Assembly: GCA_030248195.1 (NCBI GenBank)
Contig: JASAND010013050.1
Coordinates: 1-64,000, forward strand
Length of the DNA stretch: 64,000 bases
Source of the DNA: Trissonchulus latispiculum
Taxonomy: Eukaryota > Nematoda > Enoplea > Enoplida > Ironidae
Direction of reading: 5' to 3'
The position numbers and the translations under genes were made by a program. The notes under the pieces were generated by a model. The model was not told the DNA's origin. It saw only the letters and a program-made list of their open reading frames with translations, and ran no database searches. This document shows, one piece after another, positions 24,381 to 47,275 of the stretch. Position 1 is the first letter of the stretch; every line of letters starts with the position of its first letter.

Positions 24381-24960
24381 CATTTTGATCCCAACTTTTG
24401 GGAGCCATTTTTGATCTCAGTTTTTTGGGAGATATTTTGATCCCAGCCATTCTGAATCCAACTTTTTGAGCCTTTGAATGGACTGAGATTTTTGGGAACT
24501 GACTAAATCCAACTTTCGGGAACCATTTTGAATCCAACTTTTTCGGTCTATGAAAGGTCTGACGAGAATTTGTGTGTGAGTACTTACTTGAATTCCAACT
24601 TTTGGGAGCTATTTTGATCCGAACTTTTGGGAGCCATTTTGATCCAAACTTTTGGGAGATATTTTGAATCAAACTTTTGGGAGATATTTTGAATCCTACT
24701 TTTTGCGCCTTTGAGTGGACTGAGATTTTTGTGAACTGACTGAATCCAACTTTTGGTTCTATGTTGATCCGAACTTTTGGGAGCCATTTTGATCCTTACT
24801 TTTGGGAGCCGTTTTGATCCAAACTTTTGGGAGCTATTTTGATCCCAACTTTGGGGAGCCATTTTGATCCCTATTTTTGGGAGCCATTTTGATCCCAATT
24901 TTTGGGAGCCATTTTGATCCCTATTTTTGGGAGATATTTTGATCCCAACTTTTGATGTCA
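24365..24960. repeat. Minisatellite, ~26-bp unit
   Basis: More than 20 imperfect copies of a unit like TTTTGATCCCAACTTTTGGG with AGCCA or AGATA variants. The array starts inside the reading frame of the integrase remnant. Longer open frames on either strand (24358-24961) are periodic translations of the array, not genes. Confidence 0.9.
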
Positions 24961-26000
24961 ATGTTTTGAGAAAGAAGGTTTGTGGAAGTCTGTGATGAGC
25001 ATAGATGTTCAGGAGGGATTAATATATGTAATGAAATCTTATTTGTGGTCGAAAATATACTGAATCAAAATATATGTGATAGGTATGGGTATTCACAGCT
25101 CATTTAGTATATGTAATGAAACCGATGAGGACTGGGTAATTTGTAGATAGACATACATTAAATATATGTGATGGGTTCTACTTGAAAATTTTCTTCATCT
25201 TAGCAGTTTTATATTTTAATTTTGATTGTTACGTAAGTTTGGAAAATTAGTTCGTAAATAATTGGAATAGTTCTTTGTATGGAACGAATATTGCTAAATA
25301 TATTAACGTTTTGAATAATATATAGTAAGTATATATTATTTAACAGCATTATAAGAATACTAGGCTAAACTTTAGTTCTTTGAAGAAGCTTTGTCCTAGA
25401 TAGAATCATTGTCGTGGTTTTCGTTATATGCATTGCTGAGTCTAATTTCGATGTTGCTTATATGCTTTACTGCTATAGCTTTAGTAGCCTGCGTGTATAT
25501 TTCAAGTTTCTTTCCCAGCTGTTCTAAAGTCTTAGGCGTTACTTTCGCATTCGAACTTAGTATATATTCCTACTACACTGCATATATCATAAATCTAAAC
25601 GTATTTTCTGCTTTTCAGGTTATTTGACTGGTATTGAAATTTTCCGTATTATTTCATTATTATTCTAATCCATTACTATTCTTATTATTCATTGAAACTT
25701 AATTCTGTTATTCCTTTCTGGCTATTCCTCATCATCGTCTTAAACCTTATTTATCTTTTCCTCCTATGCTTTTTCTGCCAATCAACGACCACATCTCAAC
25801 GTTAGTTTCAAACCTTTATTTAAAGAAACAATTAACTGATACTTACCCATTATGAATATAGCCAAAATTGGAGTAAAATAGATAATAGTGAGGGCAAAAA
25901 TGGCTCATCATAATTTATAAATAGCGCATAACATTGATCAAATAAGTAAATAATAATAGAAATCTCCATAAATAAAATAATCAAACAGGGAATTGCAATG
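24961..26000. other. AT-rich stretch without genes
   Basis: Contains ATATATGTGATGGGT-type short repeats around 25010-25165 and otherwise unstructured AT-rich sequence up to the presumed left end of the Polinton. No TIR could be assigned with confidence. Confidence 0.4.
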
Positions 26001-26554: not shown

Positions 26555-27589
26555 TCAGTCAACATAAAATGGATAGGCCGTAATCACATAAATTTCATCA
26601 ACACTAATAATACACACAACTTTTACGGCATATAAGACTTCATTTGTATGTCCGGAATATCCAGTGGGATTATCAAAAATTTTATACAGCACCACTTTAT
26701 CCTCACTCTGCATATATACAGCCCTAGGATTTTCTACAGTCTCCATAATTAACATCCCTATATCCACATTTGACGAAAAATACGAACGCCGTCTTTTATT
26801 TACACAAGCATGAGTCTGTACATGGACATTGTCAATTACAATCTGTTTAGTTCGCAACAAGGTCTTCCACTGAGCAGGATTCGTCACATTCCATGATACA
26901 GTCTTCGGAACAGTCTTCGGATCTTCCTGGATGTAGTCATGGTAGAATGAGTCTAGTTTCGATTTCAGTTGAATCCAGTCTTCGTGCTGATACTCAACAG
27001 GCACAATCTCGATTTCGCCAACTCTAGGTGCGTAGATGGCGAGGTGTGCGATCTTTAATCCAGTAATGGCAAGCTCTCCAAGGATCTGATGGTAGTAGGG
27101 ATGTGACTTCTTCAGTTCCAATCTATCTGCAGACCGTTTACAGTAAAATCTGGATCCACGCTCGGTTATGATCTCTGACAGTCTCTTCGGTCGGAAGGAT
27201 TTATCGTAGATGCACTTGACTTCCAGGATCCAGGGCTGTTGATCTCCTGCAGTTACAATACCGTCCGGCGATGTGCCCAGGTGCTTAGCCCAGGTAGGTA
27301 CGCAAAGTCAAATAGGATGTATGGTTGCGTCGATGCCGTGGACTGTCCGTAGTTTTTCTAGATATGCCTGTTTGGCGTTGTCCTCCTCGGCAATTCCAAC
27401 ATGACAGGCGGCAGGAACCGTCCCTGACGTTGGGGCCTTGATGTTGTTTGCTAGCTTCTGAACCGTTTCCGATGACCTGGCACTTGCAATTCGGCCAAAG
27501 TAGGATGAGGTGACTCTCCCCTTTCGATGGAGCCACCACTGTTGACTATCACGCTGATCAACGGTACTGATTGCCACTGACTTATACAT
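26555..27589 (-). pseudogene. YqaJ-type exonuclease fused to a BECR-like domain, one in-frame TGA
   Basis: The N-terminal two thirds belong to the YqaJ/lambda-exonuclease family of PD-(D/E)XK nucleases, which resect double-stranded DNA for recombination. QRDSQQWWLHRKGRVTSSYF opens the domain, LGTSPDGIV carries the metal-binding Asp (about 27255), and WILEVKC supplies the E-x-K pair (about 27212). KKSHPYYHQILGELAITG is the conserved helix of YqaJ proteins. The start is ATG 27589. A TGA at 27308-27310 interrupts the frame just before the active site, yet similarity continues in the same frame. After the exonuclease, residues encoded at about 26555-26830 form a BECR-like domain ending VITAYP. 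Either a pseudogene by a single CGA-to-TGA type change, or a read-through case. Confidence 0.75.
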
Positions 27590-27836: not shown

Positions 27837-28352
27837 TTATTTTGTCAATATGTCTCTGATTTCCATTAGGATTTGGCCCATCAGGTTAGGTCCACACCAG
27901 GTTGACTCATCTTCTGCCAGTTTATCGTCCATGGCCCGTCCAATTCCGAACAATGTATCATAGGGTGATGCTTCGGCGAGGATGGCACTTCCTGTTAATA
28001 GCAACAGGTCGCGGCATGTTCCGTTCTGCCTGAACCTTGGCAGGACGCCGTCACGCATACATTTCGCCGGTTCGGTTCTCCATAGGTTCTTATCATAGTT
28101 GCGAATGTTCTTGGCGATCTGCTTCGCCTGCTTGGCTGAACGAGTTGCCATGATCCTGCGGAAGGCATCTTCATCGTTGAAGTACTTGGCCTTCTCGCTC
28201 TGGTAGTACTGTTCCACATTGTGGTATCGCATGCCACGGTGCACGAACTGCACTGGATAGAAGTTGCTGAACGGCGAATATCCGCTGTAGTACAGGAACA
28301 GGTCGGGCTTTCCTTCCCGTTTAACAATGCGACTGCACTGAACGGAATCCAT
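27837..28352 (-). CDS. NADAR-domain protein (YbiA/RibX-like)
   Basis: A 171-residue protein consisting almost entirely of a NADAR domain. This family hydrolyses N-glycosidic bonds in ADP-ribose-like compounds, and some members remove ADP-ribose from DNA guanine. Diagnostic blocks are GYSPFSNFYPVQF, NVEQYYQSEKAKYF, KQAKQIAKNIR with a following W, CRDLLLLTGSAILAEASPYD and WCGPNLMGQILMEIRD. The frame is open to 28388, but the first ATG is at 28352; the N-terminal 20 residues lie in a short duplicated segment. It sits between a membrane protein and the exonuclease/RNase-like genes. Its role in a Polinton is unknown; counter-defence or toxin neutralisation is an inference. Confidence 0.88.
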   Translation of the reverse strand: MDSVQCSRIVKREGKPDLFLYYSGYSPFSNFYPVQFVHRGMRYHNVEQYYQSEKAKYFNDEDAFRRIMATRSAKQAKQIAKNIRNYDKNLWRTEPAKCMRDGVLPRFRQNGTCRDLLLLTGSAILAEASPYDTLFGIGRAMDDKLAEDESTWCGPNLMGQILMEIRDILTK

Positions 28353-28440
28353 TGATTGAATTTTCTGGTCGGACTTCACGTTTAACAATGCAACTGTTCT
28401 GGACGGACTCCACTGGGACGACTGATTGTTTCTTCTGGGC
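28300..28440 (-). repeat. Direct duplication at the NADAR gene start
   Basis: A block of about 65 bp containing GTTTAACAATG and CGGACT/CGGGCT sequences occurs twice (about 28307-28352 and 28372-28420). It duplicates the first codons of the NADAR gene upstream of its start. The upstream copy is open in a different register and is probably a 5' UTR relic. Confidence 0.6.
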
Positions 28441-28472
28441 TGGCTGGATAGGGTAGTTAGCTAATAGTTGGC

Positions 28473-29729: not shown

Positions 29730-30365
29730 TTAACTTATTGGCATATAGACGTAATGTTGCTCTCCCGGAAGTATCCCTTCCATTACTCGGAATCTGGAGT
29801 CGGCATTAGGTTTTAGATTAAGAAACAGGTAACCATAAGGCTTCTGTGTAGTCTGTGAGAAGGCGGATGGTAGAAACTTTGGTTTTCCAGGAAAAATCTG
29901 ACTGCCCAATCGACTTATCATCAATGCGTCTCGCCGATTTGGAAATATAACTAGATAGCGAGCGTTTCTAGTTATTGTGCGTATATATTTTGATTCCTGA
30001 TATAGATTTTGAAGCAAAAGGATCACTGAACAATCTGCGTGACGACACTTTGTGAACAGTTGTGGAAACCGTTTATCGTTTTCCAACTCTACCATTAAAT
30101 CGTCCAGTACGATCAGTACATTTCCACCAGTGCTGACTATGTCTAGAAGACTGTCATCCGGCACACCCTGTTTAAGTTCTAGGTTGGGTACTGTGCCTAG
30201 CATATCTTTGTAAGCGTCTTGAAACATAGAGTATAGATAAATTATTTTATCGAATGGCTTGCTATGCAGTTCTTCCTGGTTCTTTAGTATTTGCTTAGTA
30301 AAGTGGGTTTTACCGGAACCAGTGGCTCCTGATATAACCATAGTATAGGGCGTTTGTAGTAGCAT
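29730..30365 (-). CDS. Genome-packaging ATPase (FtsK/HerA superfamily)
   Basis: A 211-residue ATPase that would pump the element DNA into capsids. Walker A is ISGATGSGKTHF near residues 10-21, Walker B is NVLIVLDDLM near residues 106-115, followed by a sensor/arginine-finger region (SVILLLQNLY). Length and motif spacing match Polinton and adenovirus-like packaging ATPases. The frame is open upstream to 30413 and overlaps the MCP end by TTG only; the first ATG is 30365, 35 bp after the MCP stop. Intact. Confidence 0.92.
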   Translation of the reverse strand: MLLQTPYTMVISGATGSGKTHFTKQILKNQEELHSKPFDKIIYLYSMFQDAYKDMLGTVPNLELKQGVPDDSLLDIVSTGGNVLIVLDDLMVELENDKRFPQLFTKCRHADCSVILLLQNLYQESKYIRTITRNARYLVIFPNRRDALMISRLGSQIFPGKPKFLPSAFSQTTQKPYGYLFLNLKPNADSRFRVMEGILPGEQHYVYMPIS

Positions 30366-30400
30366 GATAGCATGTAAGGCGTTTGTTATTGCCCTTCTTA

Positions 30401-31756
30401 TTACTCTATCCAACTAGGATTACGTGAGCCGTCTATGTGCAAGGTGGCACTGAATTCACCGATTGCAATAATATTTATTGCCTGTGTCAACGGTTTTTGA
30501 TAATCAATACGCACACGGAGATTTCCTTGCACTTGAGGATTTCTATACTCGCAACCACACCCCGCGTCTTTTGTGCAGTCAATGGCAAAGACTGTGTAGT
30601 CATTTAAGAACTCCATGCGAGTAATGTCTAACTGACTGTTCTCTCGTAGGACTCCCATTAGGGCATTAGCAAAGAGTCGTATGTTTTCCTTGGGGCTCAT
30701 AGTAAGTCCTGTCGCTACTGGAATGCTGAGTTCGTTCACAAAGATGCTCAACGAGGCAAGATCACAGTGAACAAATCGGAACGGGTTTGAATAGATGGTT
30801 GCATTGTATGCTGACGACGTTACCTGAACTAGGAACAGTCTGCTTGGCAATGGCCCAGTAAATACAGTCCAGTCGACGTTCTGGTCACCTTTAGCTACAC
30901 TTTTGACGCGTCCAACAAATCTCGATACAGGGTAGTTGAACCCACGACTTGTGAGAATTCGTTCGTAGTTTGCTAGAGCTGATGGCTCCAGTTTAATTCT
31001 TGGGACGTAGAGTCTCGCGTCAATGATTCTAATTTTGTAGCTGTCCTTCTTGATGTTGTCAAATAATGCAAAATTGACTGGGGTTCTATGTAGACGAATG
31101 GTGATTTCAGTCTGGTTAGGTATAAGTCGATCTAGTCTGGACATATCTGTCAGGAGTGGAAAGAAAAATTCCGCTTCACTTGACATCTTGATCCAATCCA
31201 TTCGTTTATTCATTGCCGTATTTAATATTGTCGGCGCTGGTGTTTCGGTTGCTGTGGCTCCTTCAGTGGCGGTGGTAGTGGCAGTGCCTGGTATGTAGTG
31301 CAAATCTCCGACTCCCCACGGATCTTTGGTCCACTTTATTAGTTCCAATATCCAGGCATCCTTGGGATAAAACAGTAGGTACCTGAGATAGCATAGCCAA
31401 GGATAGATTGTCTGATCGCTTGTAATGCTCTGATCATTAATGTAGAGCTCACAGTTTGCAAATACTGCATAGTTAAATAGATTGCAAACAGTGACCATAT
31501 CTGTTTGTTCCAATTTAGTACCGTCACCCTTCAGTACTTGAAGACGTGTGTAAACCCCGATATTGTCAATGTCAATGTAGGTGTCAGTTTTATCGATGCG
31601 GAAATCCAATGGCGTAAGGTCATCCCGAGGAAGTGTAGTGTAACATGGTATTTCTGTTATCTGAGTACTGCCCACTACTTGTTGAACTTTAGGCACATAA
31701 TCATAATCTAGGGCATCAATATTACACCCAATTTCTGTTCTTGCGCGCTTAGACAT
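30401..31756 (-). CDS. Major capsid protein (double jelly-roll hexon type)
   Basis: A 451-residue protein matching the family often annotated as uncharacterised F54H12.2-like, now understood as the Polinton/adintovirus major capsid. Conserved features include the N-terminal segment TEIPCYTTLPRDDLTPLDF, the stretch MKR-like MNKRMDWIK followed by a hydrophobic strand, the mid region IRIIDARLYVPRIKLEP, and the C-terminus ending RNPSWIE. The first ATG is 31756 (the open frame extends to a GTG at 31783). The start lies one base after the upstream core-protein stop. Intact, and alignable with the fragment at 51136-51819. Confidence 0.9.
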   Translation of the reverse strand: MSKRARTEIGCNIDALDYDYVPKVQQVVGSTQITEIPCYTTLPRDDLTPLDFRIDKTDTYIDIDNIGVYTRLQVLKGDGTKLEQTDMVTVCNLFNYAVFANCELYINDQSITSDQTIYPWLCYLRYLLFYPKDAWILELIKWTKDPWGVGDLHYIPGTATTTATEGATATETPAPTILNTAMNKRMDWIKMSSEAEFFFPLLTDMSRLDRLIPNQTEITIRLHRTPVNFALFDNIKKDSYKIRIIDARLYVPRIKLEPSALANYERILTSRGFNYPVSRFVGRVKSVAKGDQNVDWTVFTGPLPSRLFLVQVTSSAYNATIYSNPFRFVHCDLASLSIFVNELSIPVATGLTMSPKENIRLFANALMGVLRENSQLDITRMEFLNDYTVFAIDCTKDAGCGCEYRNPQVQGNLRVRIDYQKPLTQAINIIAIGEFSATLHIDGSRNPSWIE

Positions 31757-31757
31757 T

Positions 31758-31925
31758 TTAACGTCTTCCCCTTCTTCGAACACTCTCAGTTTTTCGGCGT
31801 CTTTTTTGACAAGTGCACATCTTCTTCTTCCTCTTATTAATTTTTCTCGCTCTACGCCTAGGCTTTACTCGCCTTCCACCCATCGAGTAAGCTGGAAGGG
31901 CAATTGCTCTGCGTCTGGCTGCCAT
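31758..31925 (-). CDS. Arginine-rich core protein
   Basis: A 55-residue protein with more than 20 Arg and Lys residues: MAARRRAIALPAYSMGG at the start, then RRVKPRRRARK and RRRKTES blocks. Such short protamine-like, DNA-condensing proteins occur in adenoviruses and many Polintons. The position immediately before the MCP gene fits a virion core role. ATG 31925; stop 31758 almost touches the MCP start. Too short for firm family assignment. Confidence 0.7.
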   Translation of the reverse strand: MAARRRAIALPAYSMGGRRVKPRRRARKINKRKKKMCTCQKRRRKTESVRRRGRR

Positions 31926-32575: not shown

Positions 32576-33111
32576 TTATATTTTGTTGTTGTTCCTTCTT
32601 ATTAGGTTGTCAATTTCTGTCACTTTACTACTCATTTCTATTTCGTCACTTGCCCCGGTGACAATTATTTTTCCAGTGTGAAATATGATACATACCACTG
32701 GTTTCTTTAGACAAACTTTGAGACCTGCATATTCTGGTTCCAACACAACATGATGAGTTTTTTAAGGTTTTCCGCAATGGCACATAAATTTAGGCTAGAC
32801 TGCACGTCCATCAACGCTACGACATTCCTCACACGAATGCTGCTTTCAATGCTTAAGCGTAACGTCTGGGCACACATATTAGCCGCAGTCTGGGCTTGCT
32901 CTCTGGACTGAGCCCCTGCAAGAGAAACATTACCATTGTGAAAAATTAATAGTGTCACGTTTTTATCAAGAACTAATTGACGCCAAACCAAACCCTGAAA
33001 CTTTTGAGGGTTATAGGTTGCGATGTTTGGATGAGTAGCTGCAATTTCATGTAAATTTAGTTCTTGATTAAAGCGAAAGGTCGCTATCATGTTAGTAATA
33101 CGCCACTGCAT
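32576..33111 (-). pseudogene. TATA-binding-protein-like gene, single frameshift
   Basis: TBP binds the minor groove of TATA DNA to start transcription. Here the first TBP repeat is complete: TNMIATFRFNQELNLHEIA, YNPQKFQGLVWR, TLLIFHNGNVSLAGAQS. The second repeat starts RVRNVVALMDVQ, runs into an A6 tract at about 32762, shifts frame, and continues with YAGLKVCLKKP and VVCIIFHTGKIIVTGAS to a stop at 32576. Both direct repeats of the saddle fold are thus represented in about 178 codons. ATG 33111; the gap to the minor capsid ATG is 13 bp. The homopolymer location makes an assembly indel possible. A homologue exists at 51936-52200. Confidence 0.85.
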
Positions 33112-33128
33112 TCTAGCTTGCACAATTG

Positions 33129-34223
33129 CTACACTGAAGGAAAACTAACTTTGTCTAACTTATATACGTTTTCTTCTGGTTGCCAAGTACTTGCTGATTC
33201 TGTATAGCCTAGCCATTTTACCAGGAATTCTTTTTGACCATTTTTGCCACGACGTTGTTTTAATATGCGTTCTACTTTATAGGTGGCTTCAGGTCCTTTA
33301 ATTACTTTTTGTAATTCTGGCTCATAAAACGTACCTACAATTTCCTCACCAGTACTGTCTTTGATTTTATAGACTGGCTGTCTTCGAGGAATAAGTTTGG
33401 CTATCGTAAAAATTTCCTCTGTCCAATTTGGTTTGTAACCTTTATTGAAAACTGTCTGTTCTTTTTGAATTCTAACTTGATCTCCTTCTTTAAATTTAGT
33501 TACCGGGGGCATTAGTGGAAACGTTTGCGGGTAAAGATTGCTCTTAACTTCTGATTCCACATCTTTTGTCACATCTACAGGTCTGAACTTTGTGCTACTG
33601 TGCTTAGTATGATTATATGCCTTTACAATATCTTGTAGGGCATCTATGTACCGCCAAGAATTAGCGTGAGTAAGGTAGCGGTAAATCCTTGACTTTAAAG
33701 TTCTGATAAATCTTTCCGCCATACTTGCTTTTGTTTGTGGATTTTGTGCTGTGTAAAAATTTATCCCTTTCTGTTTAAAGTAGTTATCTAAAAGAGTGTT
33801 AACAAATTTCCTACCTTTGTCTGACATGAGATTGCGAGGTTGCCGATCAGTAATAATGTTTTTGATTGCGCTTAAAATTGACCCTGCTTGTTTGGTTTTT
33901 GTTGGCTGTACCCATGCCATTTTCGAGAAACCATCAATCACAACTAGCAGGTACTTCACACCGTTGTTGTATTTGCTAAGCGCACTGATGTCTGCCAAGT
34001 CCATCTGCCAAAGATCATCTATGCCTGACATTTCACATCTATTCCTCTTAAACTTTCTTCTTGTAGGCGCATGTAGTGTGTATGCATCCTGCGAGTTCAA
34101 CCACTGCCTAACGTCGCTTTTTGTAGCCCCTAATTTGCGTGCTTGACTGTATAAACTATCTAAACCTCCTAGGCTGCCTACCCTGCCTGGTGTATAGTAA
34201 ATTTCTTCTAACTGATGCTCCAT
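33129..34223 (-). CDS. Polinton integrase with C-terminal chromodomain
   Basis: A 364-residue retroviral-type DDE integrase. A short N-terminal segment is followed by the catalytic core with D75 (DLWQMDLADIS), D135 (NLMSDKGRKF) and E170 (ASMAERFIRTL). An SH3-like segment comes next (KFKEGDQVRIQK, GYKPNWTEEIFTI), then a chromodomain at the end (YKVERILKQRRG, FLVKWLGYTESASTWQPEENV region). The chromodomain would steer insertion to marked chromatin. The open frame begins at a TTG (34232) but the first ATG is 34223. Intact. Confidence 0.95.
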   Translation of the reverse strand: MEHQLEEIYYTPGRVGSLGGLDSLYSQARKLGATKSDVRQWLNSQDAYTLHAPTRRKFKRNRCEMSGIDDLWQMDLADISALSKYNNGVKYLLVVIDGFSKMAWVQPTKTKQAGSILSAIKNIITDRQPRNLMSDKGRKFVNTLLDNYFKQKGINFYTAQNPQTKASMAERFIRTLKSRIYRYLTHANSWRYIDALQDIVKAYNHTKHSSTKFRPVDVTKDVESEVKSNLYPQTFPLMPPVTKFKEGDQVRIQKEQTVFNKGYKPNWTEEIFTIAKLIPRRQPVYKIKDSTGEEIVGTFYEPELQKVIKGPEATYKVERILKQRRGKNGQKEFLVKWLGYTESASTWQPEENVYKLDKVSFPSV

Positions 34224-34287
34224 TCCACTCAAGATAAATAAACTAGACTAGGCTACCTATAATCAAACCAAACTACTTATTAACATT

Positions 34288-34761
34288 TTATTTACATAAG
34301 TCATTCATACAGTAATCAACGGCACTGTCCCAATAGAATGTCTTATTCCTTTCATTGTCTTTGCATGAATGGGTTGGAACGACGTGGCGACATCCGTTAC
34401 AGTCTGAGCGGGCCATCATCTGCACCACTTCCGCTATGCCCATATTCCACATTTCCTGAATCGGGTAGAGGAATCGACTCCTCCAATTGTCCAGGTATTG
34501 CTCTCTGAACTTGCGCACGACTTCCATCCGCAGTTCTACGTCACGATTTTCTTTGGGCCATAGGAGGAGGACACGCTGCTCTGGGGTGAACAGGCAAACA
34601 TGGGTTGGGTTTTCGTTTAGGAGTAATAGTTGAGTCATCTCGAGGATCTGTTTCTTTCTATCCTCTTGACGGAAGAACTCATCAATCGCATCCTCCACAC
34701 AGTCACGTCCAGGTACAGGAATAGCCATGGGCATAGCATTAAGTAAGTAATTGTCCTCCAT
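34288..34761 (-). CDS. Unknown accessory protein behind hammerhead ribozymes
   Basis: A 157-residue protein (ATG 34761) of unknown family. The N-terminal two thirds are predicted helical (EDAIDEFFRQEDRKKQILEM, RMEVVRKFREQYLDNWRSRF). The C-terminus is Cys/His-rich (CNGCRHVVPTHSC, then two more Cys), suggesting zinc binding. Ribozyme B ends 11 bases before the ATG, and a splice-acceptor-like TGTGTTTAG touches the ATG. It lies between the paralogous pair of unknown genes and the integrase. No function is proposed. Confidence 0.6.
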   Translation of the reverse strand: MEDNYLLNAMPMAIPVPGRDCVEDAIDEFFRQEDRKKQILEMTQLLLLNENPTHVCLFTPEQRVLLLWPKENRDVELRMEVVRKFREQYLDNWRSRFLYPIQEMWNMGIAEVVQMMARSDCNGCRHVVPTHSCKDNERNKTFYWDSAVDYCMNDLCK

Positions 34762-34771
34762 CTAAACACAT

Positions 34772-34872
34772 AAAAGTTGTTTCGCTTTCAGCCACGAAAG
34801 CTCATCAGGAGGCTTTGCTAGATTTATTGTAGATGAATACAATAAATCTAGTAGGCAACCCCGACGACTTTT
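34772..34872 (-). ncRNA. Hammerhead ribozyme B
   Basis: Read on the minus strand: stem III 5' strand AAAAGTCGT, cleavage triplet GTC (cut after the base complementary to 34863), stem I starting GGGG and containing a 13-bp perfect hairpin (TAGATTTATTGTA), then the core CTGATGA (34802-34808), stem II GCTTTC-loop-GAAAGC (34784-34801), core GAAA (34780-34783) and stem III 3' strand ACAACTTTT. Stem III has one C-A mismatch. All invariant hammerhead bases are present. It lies 11 bases upstream of the ATG at 34761. Confidence 0.88.
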
Positions 34873-34893
34873 ACAACAATAACACTTCACAAT

Positions 34894-34980
34894 AAATTGT
34901 TTCGCTTCCAGCAACGAAAGCTCATCAGGAGGCTTTGCTAGATCTAATACAATAAATCTAGAAGGCAACCTCTACAATTT
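34894..34980 (-). ncRNA. Hammerhead ribozyme A
   Basis: On the minus strand: stem III AAATTGT pairs with ACAATTT (7 of 7), cleavage triplet GTA, stem I GAGG/CCTC plus an inner CTAGAT/ATCTAG helix, core CTGATGA (34922-34928), stem II GCTTTC-loop-GGAAGC with one G-U, and core GAAA (34900-34903). It shares most of its sequence with ribozyme B, 22 bp downstream, but the stem III sequences differ and still pair, which is evidence for conserved structure. Confidence 0.9.
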
Positions 34981-35126
34981 ACAGACCCTTAATTCTTTTA
35001 TTTTTTCTTTTCATGTGTTTTCATAATTATTCATTCTTTTCTCTTTTCATAGTCTTTCTTTTGCAATGTTATTTTGATTCTTTGTTTTAGGGTCGCTTTT
35101 TACACATTCAATATTTTACATTATTG

Positions 35127-35757
35127 TCACCAACCATTAGGGTTTCTTCTTTCTTCTTTAAACTCAACCATGAAGGTTGCAGTTTGCAGTTCAGTTGTGG
35201 GTTCAAATTGCAGGTTCTCACAGGCCTCCTCGAAGCAGGTTTCGGTTAGGCACCACCCATGGATACCGTTACGATTCTCCCGCACAATTCGACCGATTTC
35301 GGTTAGAATTTTGGTAGCCATGGAGATACCAGTGGAACCCATGGGAATTCTCATCAGGTACAGTTCTTGTCTTACCGCTTCTTCCAACTGGTCGATGTCA
35401 ACTTCCAGGACCTTTTCCAGTACTTTCTGGAAACTGTTGCCCAAGGGATAGCGGTTATTGATCGTGTAGGTAATCATTTTCCGGACAAGTTTGGACGTTC
35501 GATCCATGTTTGTTGGACGCTTTTCTATCAGGCACCGTTCCAGTTTTTCTGTCGGGATATCTTCTCTCGGCGTCTCCATTCTGATGCATTCACATTCAAT
35601 TTCTTCCATCCATCGTTTCTTCAATGCGTCGATGTTGTAGTTTCGTAGTTCCATAAGTTTCGCCAGTAGTTTCTCTGAAGCTAGGTGTAGTATCGTCGTG
35701 ATCAAAGTCCCTCAACTTTTCAGCTAATCTCACGGCCGTCATATTAATGTTATTCAT
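35127..35757 (-). pseudogene. Unknown accessory protein X2 (paralogue of X1), frameshift near the start
   Basis: About 200 residues, clearly related to the next gene upstream (36177-36923): shared blocks are TSKLVRKMI, DIDQLEEAVRQELYLMRIPM, ILTEIGRIVRENRNG, WCLTETCFEEACENL and TATFMVEFKEERR. No domain is recognised. The likely ATG is 35757, equivalent to X1's, but its frame meets the main frame only by a shift near 35700, so the N-terminus is displaced. Ribozyme C lies about 60 bp upstream of the ATG, and a TTTGTGTTTCAG acceptor-like site is 5 bases before it. Confidence 0.55.
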
Positions 35758-35814
35758 AATGTCTGAAACACAAATATAGTTATTATATCGGTATTAGCAC
35801 CGGTTTATTTGCTG

Positions 35815-35926
35815 ATGTATCATGTTTCGTCCTCGCCACAGGACTCATCAGGCACCAAAACCATCGAATGAGCATGGTTAGTTGAACCATCCTCACGCGC
35901 TGGTTGGCAGGTGCGACAGGACACAT
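35815..35926 (-). ncRNA. Hammerhead ribozyme C
   Basis: Minus strand: stem III ATGTGTCCTGT with its partner ACATGATACAT (one mismatch and one G-U), cleavage triplet GTC (cut after the complement of 35915), stem I GCACC/GGTGC closed by a long arm whose tip is ATGGTT-CAACT-AACCAT, core CTGATGA (35845-35851), stem II GTCC-loop-GGAC (35829-35844), core GAAA (35825-35828). Almost identical to ribozyme D except in the stem III 3' strand. Confidence 0.9.
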
Positions 35927-36176
35927 TTTAACTTTCTTCTTTTTAATTCACAATACTTCTTTTTATTCTTCTTTAAGGACTTGTAATCTTTTAAGTCCAT
36001 TTCTTTCTTGTGTTCATATTTTTGTGTGTCCCTCCTAGAGATACACTTGTGCTTTTTCACTTGAAACGGAACTACAAATTTCGCACTGTGTATCTCTATC
36101 AACAGTTATAACAGACATGTGTTTTTGGTATTTTGATTATGCAAGTATAGACATTCACAACAAGTTTTGTTACAAT

Positions 36177-36923
36177 TTACTCATCGCAGCAGTTTATTCC
36201 AGGCCACATCCATTCATCATAAAGCATTTGGCGTCCTATTTGCTCCCTCACATCATATAGGTCACTAGGTTTTCTTCTCTCGTCTTGAAACTCGACCATG
36301 AATGTAGCAATTTGCAGTTTATAATTTGGTTCGAAGTTCAAGTTCTCACATGCTTGCTCGAAGCAGGTATCAGTTAAGCACCACTCCTGTTTACCGTTAC
36401 GTTCTTCACGAACAATACGTTCAATCTCCATTAATATCTGGGCACCCATGTATATTCCAGTAGTACCCATGGGAATTGTCTTTCTGTAAAGTTCTCTCCT
36501 GACCTCTTCTTCTAATTGGTCCATGTCAACAGGAAGCACATTTTCCAAGGCGTCTTTGAAACGGCTATAGTAAGTGCGACAATCACAGATAGGGTTTGAA
36601 CATACGAGGTTGAACTGTTTAATCATTTTCATCACCAATTTAGAGGTTCGACTTACACCTGCAGGCCGAGCATTGACCAAACATCTCTGTAAAGTTTCTT
36701 TAGGAATGTCTGCTTTCGGATTTCGGGCTTTACCAAGTTCACACATGACTTCTTCCGTCCATCTGTTCCTCAAGACTACCACGTTGTAATCCATCAATTC
36801 GATCACGGCTGTTGGCAAATAATGTCTGATATCACCCTCGGGATCCCTGCAGCCAGCAATAATCAGCTTGTCCGCTAAATTTGCAGCAGTTAACTTATCA
36901 TTAGGAATTGGAAGGTTAGCCAT
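36177..36923 (-). CDS. Unknown accessory protein X1
   Basis: A 248-residue intact ORF (ATG 36923), acidic to neutral and mostly helical, with conserved blocks shared with X2: TSKLVMKMI, DMDQLEEEVRRELYRKTIPM, ILMEIERIVREERNG, CFEQACENL and ATFMVEFQDERR. No known domain or motif was recognised. It lies between ribozymes D and C directly behind polB. An acceptor-like TTTGTGTTTCAG sits 5 bases before the ATG. The amino-acid identity to X2 is moderate while the intergenic DNA of the two copies is nearly identical. Confidence 0.7.
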   Translation of the reverse strand: MANLPIPNDKLTAANLADKLIIAGCRDPEGDIRHYLPTAVIELMDYNVVVLRNRWTEEVMCELGKARNPKADIPKETLQRCLVNARPAGVSRTSKLVMKMIKQFNLVCSNPICDCRTYYSRFKDALENVLPVDMDQLEEEVRRELYRKTIPMGTTGIYMGAQILMEIERIVREERNGKQEWCLTDTCFEQACENLNFEPNYKLQIATFMVEFQDERRKPSDLYDVREQIGRQMLYDEWMWPGINCCDE

Positions 36924-36980
36924 AATGTCTGAAACACAAATATAGTTATTATATCGGTATTAGCACCGGTTTGTTTGCTG

Positions 36981-37092
36981 ATGTGTCCTGTTTCGTCCTC
37001 GCCACAGGACTCATCAGGCACCAAAACCATCGAATGAGCATGGTTAGTTGAACCATCCTCACGCGCTGGTTGGCAGGTGCGACAGGACACAT
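36981..37092 (-). ncRNA. Hammerhead ribozyme D
   Basis: The clearest copy. Minus strand: stem III ATGTGTCCTGT with ACAGGACACAT (11 of 11 pairs), cleavage triplet GTC (cut after the complement of 37081), stem I GCACC/GGTGC extended by AACCA/TGGTT, GTGAG/CTCAT and ATGGTT/AACCAT helices, core CTGATGA (37011-37017), stem II GTCC-TGTGGCGA-GGAC (36995-37010), core GAAA (36991-36994). It lies between the polB stop (37348) and the X1 ATG (36923). In native circular order this is a type III (open stem III) hammerhead. Confidence 0.94.
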
Positions 37093-37347
37093 TTTTACTT
37101 TCTTCTTTTTAATTCACAATACTTCTTTTTATTCTTCTTTAAGGACTTGTAATCTTTTAAGTCCATTTCTTTCTTGTATTCATATTTTTGTGTGTCCCTC
37201 CTAGAGATACACTTGTGCTTTTTCACTTGAAACGGAACTACAAATTTTGCACTGTGTATCTCTATCAACAGTTATATATATGTTTAACAAACATGTGTTT
37301 TTGGTATTTTGATTATGCAAGTACATATACAATTTCATACACAATAT

Positions 37348-40300
37348 TTATATTAGGAGGGGTTTCGTCGATATATGGTCAGGCTGTACTTGTCTTTTGA
37401 CATATAGGTAGGATAGGGCATTGCGTTGTTGTTTGTACTGTAGGGCTTCCGAATTATTGACCATGAATCCGTGGTTAGTCCCGCCCTGGGCTTCATGATC
37501 ACCCAGTAGGACCTCCATGAACATTTCCTTTGTAACAGTGTTAGTTGTCTTTGATAGTCCTTTGGTGGATAGTTTCTGGTTAGTGCACCATCCTATATAG
37601 GTCTTTGAATTCAGTGCAATCATTCCATCTCCCGACGATTCCTGTTTGAATAGGCCAGGGGTTCGTTGTTGGTAATCAGTCAGGGCAAGGTATCGATGTT
37701 TCATTTCCTCGTAGAATTTCCGCTTCGACTCTGGAATTGCCGCTTCAAGTGATTCATGGGCCAGTGCGAAGTATAGACTGTCTGTGTCTATTTCCATCAT
37801 TTGCCAGTCGTCTCTATCCAATACGGCATGAAGGAAATCGTAGAAGTCCAACATAGTTTCCTTCGCATACTGGTATACGAAGAAGGCAATGAGGGTTGGC
37901 AGACCAAACTTTACTTTCTTCTTGTACATGCAGATTTCGTTGATGTTATCCGTTATAGGATCCATTGAGTGAAACAGGGGGTCGTTTATGAATTTCGGGG
38001 TTTTGTTGTCGTCGCAGAATATGATATTTCTGTGTTTTTCCAAGTCAGTCAATGTTCGGCCATAATAGGATTTTCCCTGCAGCTTGAACAGCTCGCCCTT
38101 GATCTTCATGCTTGGGTCTCCATCTGCTTGACGGTGATTATTGGCAACTTCATCAACCAGGTGCTCGAATGCGTTGGCTTGAACGAATTCTATTGCCTGG
38201 TACACCCGGGTCACCACCAGTCCACCAGCCAGGTATCTAGTCAGCAATGGTGATGCCAATAGGATTTTCTGGGCGTGATAACTACCAACTAAACATCGCC
38301 GGGGTTTCTTCATTTGACCCGTTTCCAAGGCGAATGCTTCCATAGTATCACCGATGTCATCAATTCGGACTTCTACGTTTTTGAATATCGGTGGCATCTC
38401 AGCGTACAGTTCCAACATTTCCTGATCATACCAAGGCACTTGAATATCGACTTCTACAACACCAAAGAACTCTCCACTTTTAACTTGATTCAGCAGGTCC
38501 TGTGCATTATGGTCCTTTTCCACGCGAACTTTCAACTCGTACTCACTGCGGAATTCCCTGCTCAGGTGATTCTGTCGGAAGTCACACTCCCACATTTCGA
38601 TGTACTCAACATCCTGCTGCTGGAAGACTTCCTTTTGTCGTTCCATTCGTTGTCTGATCTCAGTGATTCTTTCTGGATCCATTTCTCCTTTGAATCTACA
38701 GTCTGGATCCTCATGCTGATGCCAATAGCATCCATGGAACTGCATGACAATCGGTTTCTCGTGCCCAGGCATGAATAGACGTATCCATCAACTGGATATC
38801 TGGATGTTTCGTGATAGAACACTTTCTGACCGCCATTGAATCGGTGCTGTATCCTGACTGAGTGGACCTCTCCTGTTGTTTCCTGAGCGTCTCGTTCCAA
38901 TACTGTGCGCATCCATTCTAGCCATAACAGTTCCATCTTGCACATGGTGTAGCCAGGTGTGCGTTTGAATTGTACAGTCAAGTTCTGGGTGACTTGCCAT
39001 TGCCACTGAATTCTATTACCTTCTTCTTGTACAGTCAAGGGTCTTGTTGCAGGCGCATGACGAACATGTTTTATCTTTTCTTTCTATTCTCCTTCTTTAG
39101 GTTCCCATAGCCCGTAGATACCAGTTGGCATAGGACGACCCAGACTGTGAAGGTACAGGCCATTCGCATCGTAGCCCAGAATTTTCTTGACTAGCTTCTT
39201 GTTGTTGATCATTGTCACACCGGCTTCATGATAGCGATGGAATACCATGGACGGACCTCCAACTATGTTGTTTTTAATCAGGTGATGGAGATGGTGTGTC
39301 TTCTGATTCCACAGGGTGAACACATGTTTTGGATGTATGGACTGGAACATGTGGATCATACTAACACCTGGAAGGCTGACTGCTTGTTTGAACATGTCGA
39401 TGTTGAGTGTTTTGAAGTGATCAAACATTTTCTGAGCTGCTTCTAGGAAGGGAACGACGTCCAGGTTATTATACGAGATAAGCATCGCTTTCATCGTACG
39501 GAATCCATTTTCGTTCCATATTTGCTGTACTTCAACATACTGTTCATCGGTAAGGTCGGAGTTTTTCAGGGTGGAGTGGAAGTCAGCTTTCGGTGGAAGG
39601 TAGTTTTGATTCAACTTTTCAATGTCAGTCAGCCATTCGTAGGGCCAGTATCCCTTGCCTTCGCTGACCTGGAACGCCTTGATCCGTTTTTCGAGATAGT
39701 TGGTTATGTCCAGGAATATGATATTGTTTGTCCCCATGGTCATGTAGGTATTGTTCTTCTTGACTGTGTAGTTGACCTGAACTTTTGCTTGCACAAGGAA
39801 CGGGATCAGGTATTTCTTCATCAAGTTCATGTCGAATTTTCCAGAGCAGAACTCGAGCACTACGAGCTGTCGGATCCAGCGATTGAATCGTTTGTACAGG
39901 ATACTCCAGCGTTTGTTTTCCATCATTCTTCCTTTTAGGTCACCGAGATCCATGTTCTGTTCCTTTAGTCGATTCGCTTCTCGCACCAGTTGTTGATACT
40001 CTGAATTCTTTTGTTGAAGGATGTGCAAGACGTCACCATATTTTTCCTTCATGCATTCGAAGGCTTTTTCGCTGATCTCTTCTAGGTATAAGTACATGTT
40101 AACCACAATCTCTGTGGGTTCTCCATTGGACACAAAGCATTTTGCTTCTTCGTATCCGGGTACATTTGAAGCCACGCTGACACTAGCAGGTATCAGTGTC
40201 TGTGTATAACACAGTTTTCCAGCTGTTGGTTCACGTCTTTCAAACAATGCTTCGAAGTCGTAGGTGGCCCGGTACGGATAGAAGTTGTCCTCTGGTAGTG

Positions 40301-41327
40301 TTATCCCTTCTTCTCGCAATTCCTGATGGATTGACTTTGGCAGACCGAATCCTCCACCGGGGTAGATGTACTCTGTCTTAGGACCACTGCAGTTTTCCAT
40401 GTGCTGTTTAGCATTTCCATGGTGGTCAAACAAGCGATCACACTTTGTACATCTCCAACACTTGGCGTACAGTTCTACGTCAGTGATCAGACTGAAGTGA
40501 TTTTCATACAGGTTAAGGTTCACTGTTATTGGATAGGTTGTCAGTGACAATCTGATGATGGCTGCATGTGGCTCTGTAATTTCTTCAGTTTCCATAAGTT
40601 CTTCTTCTTGTTGTTCTTCATCAACTGCTTCTTCCTGGTTCTCTTCTTCTTCATCGCCCTCTTCTTCTTGTTCTTCATCTTCCCCTTCTTCTTCTTCTTC
40701 TTTACCTGCCTCAGTTAGAATGAAGGGATTCTGTTGCAAGGCTGGAGCATCTACCATCGGAACGTCATTTTCTTCCTCTGGCTCCGGTTCTTCCAGCACT
40801 GCTAGAGGAATAATGTTTGGTTCACAGACGGCATTCAGTAGTTGTTGTAGACCCTGTGCTGGTTCAACCTCCATTGGTTGTTCCTCGTTTGGTTGTTCCC
40901 CTGGAATTCGCATCTCGTATACATTGATGTTCACATCAAATAACTTTTCCAAGTCTTTCAGTTGGCTCATCTTCACTCCATGGAATGGTTTCCTTGCATC
41001 CCGTCCTGTCTTATGGCACCAATGTCTGAAGAATCCTTTTGCTATCTTTTCCACATGCCTCGGATTTCCTTTCTTTGCTGCTGCAATGCACCGGAATGCG
41101 CAAAGATTATCTTCGTATGGAGCGCTGGTGTTCGGTTTGGTGTCGAAGGCTCGGATTGCGGGACATCGTTTAATCGACTGGGGTAGATTAACTGGTGCCC
41201 CAATGAGTCGAGATGGCATGGCGTATATAGTCACCAACATGTTCGTCAAGCTATCCACCACGTATTTGGTATTTGGTCTTTGATGAAGCGCCCATTCGAG
41301 TTGAAGATGAAGCGCCCTTAATGTCAA
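37348..41327 (-). pseudogene. Protein-primed DNA polymerase B, one stop and one frameshift
   Basis: About 1310 codons. The N-terminal part (41327-39084) has a Cys-centred region (DNLCAFRCIAAAKKG), a very acidic insertion (about 40650-40730 in plus coordinates), a CX2C-H zinc element (CWRCTKCDRLFDHHGNAKQH), an exonuclease DxE motif (YDFEALF) and polymerase motif A (YDANGLYLHS). A TAG at 39084-39086 then interrupts the frame. The segment to about 38775 continues in the same frame, after which the frame shifts, carrying FHGCYWHQH, motif B (KLQGKSYYG) and motif C (MEIDTDSLYF) to 37348. No ATG exists at 41327 (TTG); the first ATGs are near 41240 and 41219. This is the organellar/viral, protein-primed type typical of Polintons. 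Confidence 0.92.
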
Positions 41328-41330
41328 ATT

Positions 41331-42060
41331 TATCCTTTAAATGGCACATAAAATCACACTCAAAATCGTCTTTTATTTTCAAAATTATGTTAATTCTTAA
41401 TTAGAATACACAATTCTAGTCGTTTTATATGATATACAATAGGCGTAATCGTTTAAATTAAATTACACTCAACGTCGTCCTATATCTCAACATTTTCTTT
41501 AAGTAGAACATAAAATTTCCAATCTTTTGATACGTAACCCATCAGGATTGTGTGACGATTCCCCCAAAAGGGACATGCCGCTGTCAAAATGTTGACAGTT
41601 ACATGTCAAATGCAATGGTCACTTGAGATTGAAGGAGAGTTGAAGTAAAGGAAAATCGGAGAAACTGTAAAGAAAAGATGGGGGTCTTTTTGCGAATTTC
41701 GAATCTTTTACATTCCAAGCTAAATAACACAAATTTTAATTTCAAAGTTAAAATGAGGATATTTGTAATAATTAAATGAATTCAAAGCTAAAATAATTTC
41801 TTCAAAAATTAACTAAAGCAAGTAAACTTCAAAAATAAGTACATAACGTAACTCACCAATTAAAAGCAATCTCTACATTTAACACAAACGATCTAAATTT
41901 AAACATAACATTAAAATGGTTTTGCACTATGCACTATGACCTTAAGATTTTATAAGGTTCATAGATTTGACCTTTCTAATTTCTAGTTGTACTTACGTGT
42001 TAGTCTACGGCGTCATAAATCTTTCGTAAACAATACATTGGCTCAAACGGCACCCAATCA
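41331..42060. other. AT-rich stretch upstream of polB
   Basis: No gene seen. It should contain the right end of the Polinton and the promoter of the polB operon, but no terminal inverted repeat matching 26 kb was found. Around 41340-41540, blocks such as CATTTTCTTT..AGAACATAAAATTT foreshadow the tandem repeats that follow. Confidence 0.4.
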
Positions 42061-42720
42061 CACAGCCACACAACAGCTGTTCTACATACCAACTAAAACA
42101 GTTACACGCATTCCTCTATGTACATTTTCTTTGACTAGAACACAAAATTTCTAGTCGTTTGACAGCATGTTGCATAACTGCTTAAGCCTTCACAACATTT
42201 TCATTAATTAGAAAATAAAATTTTCAGTTGTTTGATATGCTACGTGGCCCTTTAAATTAGAGCACACTTAAAGTCTTTCTTTATCTTAACATTTTCTTTT
42301 ATTAGAACATAAAATTTGCAATCTTTTGATACGTAACACAACAGCTGTTCTATATATCAATTAAAACAGTTACACGCATTCCTCTATGTACATTTTCTTT
42401 GACTAGAACACAAAATTTCTAGTCGTTTGACAGCATGTTGCATAACTGCTTAAGCCTTCACAACATCTTCATTAATTAGAAAATAAAATTTTCAGTTGTT
42501 TGATATGCTACGTGGCCCTTTAAATTAGAGCACACTTAAAGTCTTTCTTTATCTTAACATTTTCTTTTATTAGAACATAAAATTTGCAATCTTTTGATAC
42601 GTAACACAACAGCTGTTCTATATATCAACTAGAACAGTTACACGCATTCCTCTGTGTACACATTTTCAAACACAAAATTTCAAATCGTTTGATATGTAAC
42701 ACAGCAGGTGTTCCTTTCAT
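42060..42720. repeat. Tandem repeat, ~268-bp unit
   Basis: ACACAACAGCTGTTCTA marks unit starts at about 42066, 42337 and 42604. The first two units are full-length and more than 90% alike, and the third is partial (to about 42720). Within a unit there are shorter degenerate repeats of the TAGAACA.AAAATTT type. Non-coding satellite-like array. Confidence 0.85.
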
Positions 42721-45079: not shown

Positions 45080-45118
45080 TAACAATATGTGCCCAAAAGT
45101 AATCACAACCTTAAATTG
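45080..45118. repeat. Right-end fragment related to the TTAA-flanked MITE
   Basis: AACAATATGTGCCCAAAAGT followed by AATCACAACCTTAA closely matches the right end of the element at 22355-23343 (23309-23343). It abuts the BEL/Pao remnant. Confidence 0.55.
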
Positions 45119-47275
45119 CACCAATGACAGGTAAGGTTAAGTCTCGACTGACTGGTAACCCAGTCGATAGCCATCGCTATGCAGCCTGCCGATTCCTTGG
45201 AAATGGTAGGACTGCTGGCGCTTTGTCTAATTTCTTTTACTCTTCTTGAAACGAATTGAGACTGAAGACGGGTTGTTCTGATCCTTTGTAGTACATACTT
45301 TGAGTCGGTCCAAAGCATCATGTTTCCTGTTGGCAATGTTAAGTGACCGGAAATATATTTCAGGCATCTTGTTCCACAGAGAATGGCTAAAAGTTCAAGC
45401 TGTGGTATGGTTGCAGCTCTGCTTGTAGCCAATCTAGGTTTACTAAAGAGAAGATGAGTTTGACATGTACCAGGGCACTCAATTCGTAGATATGCAGACG
45501 CAGCGTAGATCGCGGCTGAGGCATCTGTGAAACAGAGTAGACTGTATTTCCGGCACCGGAAATATTTCGGTAAGCAGAAATCTTGGAAACTGTACCAAGG
45601 GAATGTTTTCAAAATCCTCTGACAGTTTCTTCCATATGGTCTTGTCTTCTACTGAAGTTTATCGTTCCAACCTGACGGTGTTTCCCATAGTTTGCTCTAC
45701 AACAACTTGGTCTGTACAGTAACAGAAGTAAAGTAGCCAAGAGAATCATAGTATGGTGCCATCGATTTTAGAATCTCTCTTCCGGATACTTTGAATCCCT
45801 GGTGTGATTTCAGCTGTGGAATTGCTATTGTGTCTTTCTGAACATTCCAACGAAGTCAAGTACCTTCATGGTTATATCGGAAACCTTGTCTTCGTTTGGA
45901 AGGTAGCACATGAAACTCTGATCATTGCTGGCCCATTCCCTTATGCTCATGGTCACTTGTTGGATGATAGTTTTTGCTTCATAGTAGAACATTGATGCAG
46001 ATATTGCATCATCCATACCTGTTACCAGGTTGTCGACGTGAGTGCTCTCCTGTATAGTCGTTGATACCAAACTGTCGTATTTCTGAAGATGAAATTGCAC
46101 ATTTGCTGCCAACAGAAAAGGGCTGGCAACCATCCCAAAAGGAACCATGCAGAATCTTTATATTTGTAGTTTTTCTTCTACCGCAGGTTTGTGGATGTCG
46201 TTTATCCAAAGCAATCTAGCTAAATCTCTATCTGCCAGTTGTAGGCCAACCTGATAGAAAAGCTTTTTAATGTCGGCCAAAATGTCAACTGGTTTATCCA
46301 AAATCGTAGTAGCAAGCTGACTAAATCTTCTAAGAGTACCGGTCATCTGTAGATGCATTCATTCAAACTAAGATTTGATTTTTGGACTGGGCTGACCCGT
46401 CGTAGACAATTCTGTCCTTTGTCGTAGTTATTTGTAGTGTCAAGACGCCATGATGTGGGATATAATGGAAGAACGGACCATGCTGGTATCGTTGTTAACC
46501 AGTTCAACCACAACCTTACTGCTAAGTGTTCTCAAAAGCGAGTGTAGTCTGCCCAAAGCCAACTCAAAATTGTCTAGCAATTCTATGTCGCTGCCATTGT
46601 AGGGCCATTTTACGTAGTATCTTCCGTTTGAAAATGATATAGAACTCAAAAACTGATGGAGAGCTTTATGGTCATCAGTATGTTCTATGGATTCTTTGAG
46701 TGACAGTGACAGAGACCTTAGGTTGAAATTGTTCTTCAGTTTCTGAATGCTTTCCACAAGCCTGAACAATGCTGATGTTTGCCAGAGTTACCATTGAGAT
46801 TGTGTCGTCTCTGTATAAAGCATCCTTATCTGAGCTTCTACCGGTTACAATCGATCCCAACTTTGTTTAGATGCAGTCCGGTCTTTAATTTGTGCATTTC
46901 CATGGTCATAAGATCCATGCAGTAGTCTGATCCTATCAGAAGCTCAACAGTGGTATCTTCACTTTGTTGTGGTAAAGTATCAGCTAGACTTAGATCAAGT
47001 ATAGATAGTTCATCGGCAATGTTCTTTGTATCTCCCTTGTAATCTGTTCAACAATGTTCACAGTCATATTGTAGCTTTAACCACATTTTAGCTTAATACA
47101 AAGAACAGTTGTTGGGCTTTTTTGATCTAGATTCAAAAACTGTATCCATGTGACGTCTTTATTGCGTGGCCAAATGCCTGCATAAAACCTTCTACTTTTC
47201 CTAAAAACATTTGCTTTGCTAAACTTCTGGGAGTGAGTTTGTCTGCTGGATCCTTCATAAGAATGATATACCAAG
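45119..47275 (-). pseudogene. Decayed BEL/Pao LTR retrotransposon pol
   Basis: Successive minus-strand pieces in different frames reconstruct the order of a BEL/Pao polyprotein. The protease-to-RT linker is at about 46440-46769 (FSNGRYYVKWPY, LALGRLHSLLR). RT lies at 46158-46358 (DILADIKKLFYQVGLQ, RDLARLLW) and 45825-46148 (VPFGMVASPFLLAANV, VDNLVTGMDD, REWASNDQSF), and RNase H at 45119-45612 (FTDASAAIYAASAYLR, TIPQLELLAILCGTR, LWTDSKYVLQRI). At least four frame changes separate them. No LTRs or integrase were identified. Confidence 0.85.

Follow-up and report, generated by a model that had tools for sequence, protein, structure and literature searches.

The stretch of DNA analysed here (the window) comprises 64,000 nucleotides (nt) of contig JASAND010013050.1 from the nematode Trissonchulus latispiculum, and carries on its minus strand an element encoding polB, an integrase, a packaging ATPase, and a double-jelly-roll capsid protein. 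Judged from these genes, the element is a Polinton/Maverick of the adintovirus-like kind. On the minus strand, the genes follow one another in the order polB, open reading frame (ORF) D, ORF C, ORF A, integrase, TBP-like protein, small ORFs, capsid, packaging ATPase, and further ORFs. Four predicted hammerhead ribozymes (copies A to D) were found between polB and ORF A. All four were intergenic and on the coding strand, and at least one was present in each of the three gaps separating these genes. The initial annotation had placed a hammerhead ahead of every one of the three uncharacterised ORFs that follow polB; this arrangement was recovered, with the qualification that copy C is followed by an ORF whose frame is broken near its start.

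The minus strand was inspected for the motif over positions 34500-37300. Copy D was located at 36981-37092 with a predicted cut at 37081/37080, copy C at 35815-35926 with a cut at 35915/35914, copy B at 34890-34984 with a cut at 34973/34972, and copy A at 34770-34874 with a cut at 34863/34862. The triplet at the predicted cut was GUC in A, C, and D, and GUA in B; these triplets and all four cut positions agreed with those that the initial annotation had assigned. Each copy contained CUGAUGA, a paired stem II, GAAA, a closing stem III, and a stem I following GUC or GUA, and the core that defines the hammerhead class (CUGANGA and GAAA with an NUH triplet at the cut) was thus present in four of four copies. 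The elements were ordered as the 5' strand of stem III, the cut, stem I, CUGAUGA, stem II, GAAA, and the 3' strand of stem III, which corresponds to type III. Copy D had a stem III of 10 base pairs (bp) without mismatch, a basal stem I of 5 bp, an internal loop with GCCA, and a stem II of 5 bp closed by the loop GUGGCG. Copy C differed from copy D at 2 of 112 positions, resulting in one mismatch in stem III and a single G.U pair in C. Of the 10 stem III positions, 9 or 10 were paired in every copy, with one mismatch each in A, B, and C; that in copy A was a C.A mismatch at pair 3. Stem I was 44-63 nt long.

In a core scan that covered both strands of the whole 64 kb and required CTGANGA, a stem II with four or more of its five pairs, and GAAA, copies A to D were returned and nothing else; these are exactly the four minus-strand copies with CTGATGA and GAAA cores claimed at these places. 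A three-stem type III descriptor recovered D and B in its strict form and D, C, and B in its relaxed form; copy A, with its mismatch at stem III pair 3, was missed. The chance rate of this descriptor in 150 Markov-1 simulations was 0.0 (strict) or 0.027 (relaxed) sites per 64 kb.

The four copies were then compared in a pairing table of 80 base-pair cells, namely 10 stem III, 5 stem I, and 5 stem II pairs in each copy. In total, 77 of the 80 cells paired. Both sides had changed between copies at 12 of the 20 pair positions (six of them in stem III and three each in stems I and II, counted by eye), and copies A and B already differed from each other on both sides at stem III positions 5 and 8. 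When strands were swapped between A/B and C/D, they paired less than the own strands in every stem; the closest case was the 5' stem III strand of B with the 3' strand of C/D, which gave 7 pairs as against 9 with its own partner. These results bear out the earlier claim that the stem III sequence differs between A/B and C/D with the pairing kept within each ribozyme. By sequence, pairing, and covariation, copies A to D are type III hammerheads, for which self-cleavage is predicted.

The gap between polB and ORF D (36924-37347, minus strand) contained a hairpin, an A-rich spacer, hammerhead D, and an acceptor-like TTTGTGTTTCAG located 5 nt before the ATG. The gap between ORF D and ORF C (35758-36176, minus) held a second leader cassette, and that between ORF C and ORF A (34762-35126, minus) held hammerheads B and A in tandem, with cuts 110 nt apart. 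The leader hairpin upstream of D (37202-37264, minus) had an 11-bp closing stem, UAGAGAUACAC/GUGUAUCUCUA, plus 4 bp, and a copy of it lay upstream of C at 36036-36098 on the same strand. For each copy of the hairpin, none of 200 shuffled sequences folded equally well. Assignment of the hairpin to a known RNA family was rejected, as its four Rfam matches (best E value 0.29) were all below the gathering score.

The leader cassettes of D and C, about 400 nt each (37322-36921 and 36146-35755), were nearly identical, with 333 of 339 aligned bases shared, and the likeness dropped at the ATG. In comparison, only 55 of 99 third codon positions were identical between ORF D and ORF C in one gap-free stretch, which suggests that the leader and ribozyme have been kept alike as a unit. 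This likeness may have arisen from gene conversion, recent copying, or selection. Purifying selection as the sole cause was rejected, because even the A-rich spacer was nearly identical; gene conversion or recent copying is therefore at least as likely.

Subsequently, the copies were compared with an atypical class of animal type III hammerheads that cleaves in vitro (PMC7936874). The passages of that paper on this class describe a first stem I of 5 bp, an internal loop starting with GCCR, an extra apical hairpin, a 6-bp stem II, and a loop II of YGGC able to pair with GCCR. As far as it is described in those passages, the architecture of this class is resembled by the predicted architecture of copies A to D. 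Copies C and D share all of these traits except stem II, which is 5 bp here instead of 6 bp. Copies A and B share the 6-bp stem II, whereas their first stem I has 6 bp instead of 5 bp and their internal loop reads GCCU instead of GCCR; the loop of A (UGGC) matches YGGC and that of B (UUGC) does not. Read from the loops, a possible contact between the stem I loop and loop II would comprise 4 bp in C and D (GCCA/UGGC), 3 bp in A (GCCU/UGGC), and 2 bp in B (GCCU/UUGC). According to the same passages, the class occurs in circular RNA genomes and as isolated copies in the genomes of two termites, with no recognisable ORF closer than 2 kb; fly copies are also described there, with no gene context given in these passages. 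The known members thus come from circular RNA or isolated host DNA, whereas the four motifs here occupy gaps between the genes of a DNA virus-like element.

Viral contigs were searched with the integrase, the polB fragment, the capsid protein, and a capsid alignment, and no relative of the element was found; the polB fragment also gave no match to phages. Among DNA patterns applied to the viral contigs, that with the A/B-type loop II hit one contig (L001, a phage by its ORFs), that with the C/D-type loop II hit none, and a general TGGC-loop pattern hit 111 stretches, giving 112 loci together with L001. A script found that seven of the 112 loci close all three stems in type III order, and one of these, on a phage contig (L016, from IMG/VR), has GCC/GGC. 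Its type III hammerhead with the GCC/GGC contact, identified by eye at about 3280-3370 on the minus strand, lies directly behind a stop codon and about 10-20 nt before an ATG; the same frame is open through the motif and the start is uncertain. This hammerhead resembles those described here in combining type III order and GCC/GGC with a position between stop and ATG, in a contig that is tailed-phage-like by its ORFs as judged by eye. The integrase, ATPase, TBP-like protein, capsid, ORF D, and ORF A gave no match to the 112 loci. Of 93 capsid or polB relatives compared with the same loci, only two (P0072 and P0093) matched, each with one hit on L106 and one on L043.

The genes of the host element, all on the minus strand, were assigned as follows. 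polB was present as fragments in different frames within 37348-41336, of which 37348-38787 was assigned by homologues and 39084-41336 by position and a polB-type motif seen by eye. The former fragment had 83 homologues; some carry PF03175 or are labelled DNA-directed DNA polymerase in invertebrates, and a few carry names of sea cucumbers, a snail, and a pearl oyster. The polB fragments of the window gave no Pfam polB match. The integrase (33129-34247) matched Pfam rve (6.9e-9) and a chromodomain (2.5e-12), and the packaging ATPase (29730-30413) matched Pox_A32 (8.4e-10). The TBP-like protein (32707-33144) matched Pfam TBP (3e-24) and TBPs in the PDB (E values down to 4e-19), and would fit element-specific transcription. 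The major capsid protein (30401-31864) was assigned by the fold of its predicted model, which had a mean predicted local distance difference test (pLDDT) score of 63 and matched Sputnik 3j26 at 2.2e-15, PBCV-1, mavirus, and an adintovirus protein; a protein search with the capsid found 10 relatives.

ORF D (36177-36923) encodes 248 amino acids of unknown function, and none of the 190 candidates in a protein search reached E<=0.001. The ORF C region (35127-35757), whose intact part spans 35127-35711, is a paralogue of ORF D, with 99 of 185 aligned protein positions identical. ORF A (34288-34761) encodes 157 amino acids of unknown function; a relationship to ORF D was rejected, since no similarity was detectable. 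No inverted arms were found flanking the damaged element in a search for terminal inverted repeats, and no adenovirus-type cysteine protease turned up in Pfam scans, which covered only part of the small ORFs.

Further features were noted within and around the element. The motif TAATAAG occurs at 34282, 32604, 31991, 31839, 30403, and 28982 on the minus strand, that is, six times in 5.4 kb as compared with 0.84 expected, and none of 500 simulations reached six in this region; nine minus-strand sites were listed altogether. Judged by eye, the motif mostly precedes the start of an ORF by about 40-85 nt, and five of the six sites extend to TAATAAG[A/T]AG. It is absent before some late genes and before every hammerhead-led gene. 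TAATAAG is a candidate gene-start or promoter motif. Beyond the capsid-side genes, an ORF with a NADAR domain (1.7e-39) and one for a YqaJ-like recombinase (1.3e-4) were found at 27837-28460 and 26555-27307, respectively, on the minus strand, and one relative of polB (P0045) carries PF08719, the NADAR family. A second ORF, at 23835-24440 on the plus strand, resembles the Polinton integrase by eye (LWQFDLADM compared with LWQMDLADI) and is overlapped by a 25-bp tandem array at 24372-24978. A 268-bp tandem repeat lies upstream of polB at 42068-42692, and part of it recurs in a related copy at 41452-41545. The flanks contain domains of a retrotransposon (gag, protease, reverse transcriptase, and RNase H), a fragment of a Pao-type peptidase, and an ORF for a rhodopsin-family receptor (2515-5374, plus; 45103-45648, minus; and 16189-17154, plus, the last being the receptor ORF). 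The receptor ORF by itself points to a probable animal host.

Our leading, though tentative, reading of this arrangement is that a common transcript would be cut at the boundaries between genes by the four predicted type III hammerheads, which are spread over three gaps between polB and ORF A. The initial annotation had offered this role beside those of a switch in the leader and of a source of linear or circular RNAs. The positions, strand, cores, stems, covariation, and gene order are read in the sequence, whereas transcription across the gaps, self-cleavage, and separation of the messages are inferred. A single RNA would run from polB through ORF A and be cut at every boundary, and each cut would leave a 2',3'-cyclic phosphate at the end of the upstream message and a 5'-OH at the start of the downstream message. 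Many type I hammerheads of retrozymes have a weak helix III, according to the passages of PMC7229834, PMC7761336, and PMC6431247 on them; here stem III is strong, with 9 or 10 of 10 positions paired, and single copies could therefore cut. The distance from the cut to the next ATG was 101-211 nt, and four (D), five (C), and two (A) ATGs lay between the cut and the ORF start. The downstream piece would thus keep the remainder of the ribozyme and upstream AUGs, so that a further step would be needed. A candidate for this step is splicing at the acceptor-like TTTGTGTTTCAG of C and D or TTTTATGTGTTTAG of A, which are 5 nt (C and D) and 0 nt (A) from the ATG; such splicing would take out both the ribozyme and the AUGs that precede the ORF. 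Poly(A) hexamers ahead of the cuts were rejected as evidence, since the leaders are A-rich and the hexamers are likely to occur by chance.

A similar role has been proposed for hammerheads of prophages, which flank single genes and may cut a long phage RNA into single-gene mRNAs; three prophage arrays were cleaved during in vitro transcription (PMC3088659). The passages of that paper on viral cases include ardA of A. tumefaciens and haloviruses HF1/HF2, in which a hammerhead lies 13 nt before a helicase gene. Like the motifs described here, these prophage and halovirus hammerheads occupy gaps in a virus genome beside single genes, and those of prophages also occur several per genome with the same proposed role. 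However, these systems are bacterial or archaeal and need no cap, whereas the element described here is eukaryotic and an uncapped product would need another step. Retrozymes of animals and plants and Penelope-like elements (PMC7229834, PMC7761336, and PMC6431247) likewise have hammerheads within eukaryotic mobile elements. As described in the relevant passages, they are retroelements; the animal ones have type I motifs, many with a weak stem III, in tandem repeats, and the plant ones have type III motifs in long terminal repeats. The present copies depart from animal retrozymes and Penelope-like elements in their type III order, in the cuts of C and D, which are 1166 nt apart around an ORF, and in that no reverse transcriptase was found in 13 element ORFs. 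The hepatitis delta virus-like ribozymes of R2 and other elements without long terminal repeats (PMC3774820) also free an element message from an upstream transcript by self-cleaving RNA. According to the passages on R2, they belong to another ribozyme class and to a retroelement, and are located at the 5' end of the element and not between genes.

Several findings weigh against cleavage of a shared transcript as the role of the hammerheads. Cleavage by itself would leave the downstream RNAs uncapped, and the splicing step is the weakest part of the proposed mechanism: on a crude matrix, the acceptor-like sites ranked in the top 3.5% (C and D) and 11.2% (A) of the 7665 AG sites of the window. 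In addition, the gaps between the later genes contained no hammerhead core by the 64-kb core scan. Copies C and D, and likewise A and B, look like duplicates of each other, so that only about two lineages are compared and the sequences provide about two independent observations, not four. Furthermore, this Polinton copy may be dead, because the frames of polB and ORF C are broken.

The Rfam results belong to the same side, as the whole window gave no match at the gathering score. The stretch 34500-37400 gave no match at E<=10, and copy C, which was searched against Rfam only inside these longer stretches, was without a match. When searched alone, copy B matched Hammerhead_3 (RF00008) over the full length of the model (positions 1-54) with 30.0 bits and E=4e-5, and so did not reach the gathering score (48.5). 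Copy D alone gave 14.7 bits (E=1) for the core and stem II part only, and copy A alone gave 13.0 bits (E=2.6) for the core part only, with several chance families scoring higher. The initial annotation had named the absence of hits at hammerhead thresholds in 34700-37150 as a result that would speak against it; such hits were indeed absent at the gathering level, although copy B matched the entire model at E=4e-5. Since stem I is long and copy B still matches in full, the shortfall likely reflects the long stem I and not a missing motif.

Folding spoke partly for the ribozymes and partly against them. On its own stretch, the minimum-energy fold was the hammerhead for B, C, and D, and copy A folded differently. 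The numbers of shuffled sequences, out of 200, that folded equally well were 0 for A, 17 for B, 0 for C, and 0 for D; the stability of copy B is thus ordinary, and the case for this copy rests on its motif and Rfam match. For D, the computed share of the hammerhead fold was 0.48 alone and <1e-5 with the leader; for C, it was 0.39 alone and at most 1.3e-4 with the leader; for A, it was 3e-4 alone and 5e-8 in the leader. For B it was 0.43 alone and 0.19 in the leader. Tertiary contacts and co-transcriptional folding lie outside the model that gave these shares. In the leader, an alternative fold was better than the hammerhead by 7-10 kcal/mol (D) or 4-10 kcal/mol (C), which may mean that the ribozyme is held in an off-state, that the effect arose by chance, or that the energy model reaches its limits here. 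An extension of the leading reading, possible but doubtful in our judgement, is that a repeated cassette consisting of a hairpin, a gated hammerhead, and a splice acceptor divides the accessory genes from polB as a eukaryotic counterpart of the prophage arrays, with the alternative fold timing the cutting.

The same folds could instead point to a switch, which we consider unlikely. Each accessory gene would then be transcribed from a promoter of its own, and its message would be destroyed by the ribozyme in the 5' leader unless the alternative fold, favoured by 37191-37200, closed the core. In this alternative fold, which is the more stable one in the leaders of D and C by the margins given above, the 5' strand of stem III is paired to a leader segment, and CUGAUG pairs with CAUCAG. 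The candidate anti-ribozyme element at 37191-37200 (minus strand) can pair with the 5' stem III strand of D and so replace the pairing of the ribozyme, which is suggestive, and only 2 of 200 shuffled leaders of D competed equally well. For C, however, 11 of 200 shuffled leaders did so, and the competition between folds may therefore be due to chance; moreover, copy B was hardly changed by its leader. A TATA-like stretch lies upstream in D, but it is shortened in C. The TBP-like protein encoded by the element would agree with separate promoters, and TAATAAG near several late-gene starts hints at transcription gene by gene. We know of no ligand or protein for such a switch.

It is improbable that the motifs are passengers, that is, remnants of a captured small mobile or delta-like RNA without a role in the element. 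The isolated copies of the atypical class in termite genomes, as described in the passages of PMC7936874, would suit such an origin, as would the broken polB and ORF C and the stem III pair lost in A. However, all four copies are in sense orientation and intergenic, the identity of the C and D cassettes ends at the ATG, and the stems of A/B and C/D are much diverged yet paired. The preservation of pairing in diverged stems suggests selection since the divergence of A/B from C/D.

Excision of RNA was also considered and appears quite improbable: pairs of ribozymes would release unit RNAs that RtcB, a host ligase able to close cleaved RNAs into circles, could circularise as in retrozymes. The spacings between cuts are 1166 nt from D to C (holding ORF D), 942 nt from C to B (holding ORF C), and 110 nt from B to A. 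The 5' strand of stem III is identical in C and D, so that closing a circle from D to C would again give a fully paired hammerhead, with 10 of 10 stem III pairs formed by the 5' strand of C and the 3' strand of D. Retrozyme circles are known in animals, as stated in passages of PMC7229834; animal retrozymes, however, have type I hammerheads whose stem III is in many cases weak, and the strong stem III found here would recut the circles. The ribozymes here also lack a retrozyme-like short tandem repeat, and the 13 element ORFs scanned with Pfam included no reverse transcriptase. Finally, chance or non-catalytic hairpins that resemble hammerheads are hardly credible, since the full core, cleavage triplet, and three stems occur jointly with covariation and only 0-0.027 sites are expected by chance, even though the Rfam gathering score was missed and copy B is of ordinary stability.

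A literature search, with most subscription papers outside its reach, found no report of hammerheads in Polintons, in agreement with the initial annotation, which knew of none between Polinton genes. Two papers, PMC6431247 and PMC4609113, mention both hammerhead ribozymes and Polintons; the hammerhead passages of PMC6431247 concern Terminons and Penelope-like elements, and the ribozyme passages of PMC11071296, PMC8969392, and PMC5718144 contain nothing on Polinton hammerheads. The hammerheads known from animals are chiefly those of type I in retroelements, according to the passages of PMC7229834 and PMC7761336 on them. The motifs described here therefore represent a known ribozyme class in a new context, and the observation is both right and unusual. 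Placement of the four motifs between Polinton genes would give the atypical type III class a home, and would point to the use of RNA self-cleavage in gene expression by a lineage of eukaryotic DNA viruses. The arrangement makes it testable how a Polinton obtains separate messages from tightly packed genes on the same strand.

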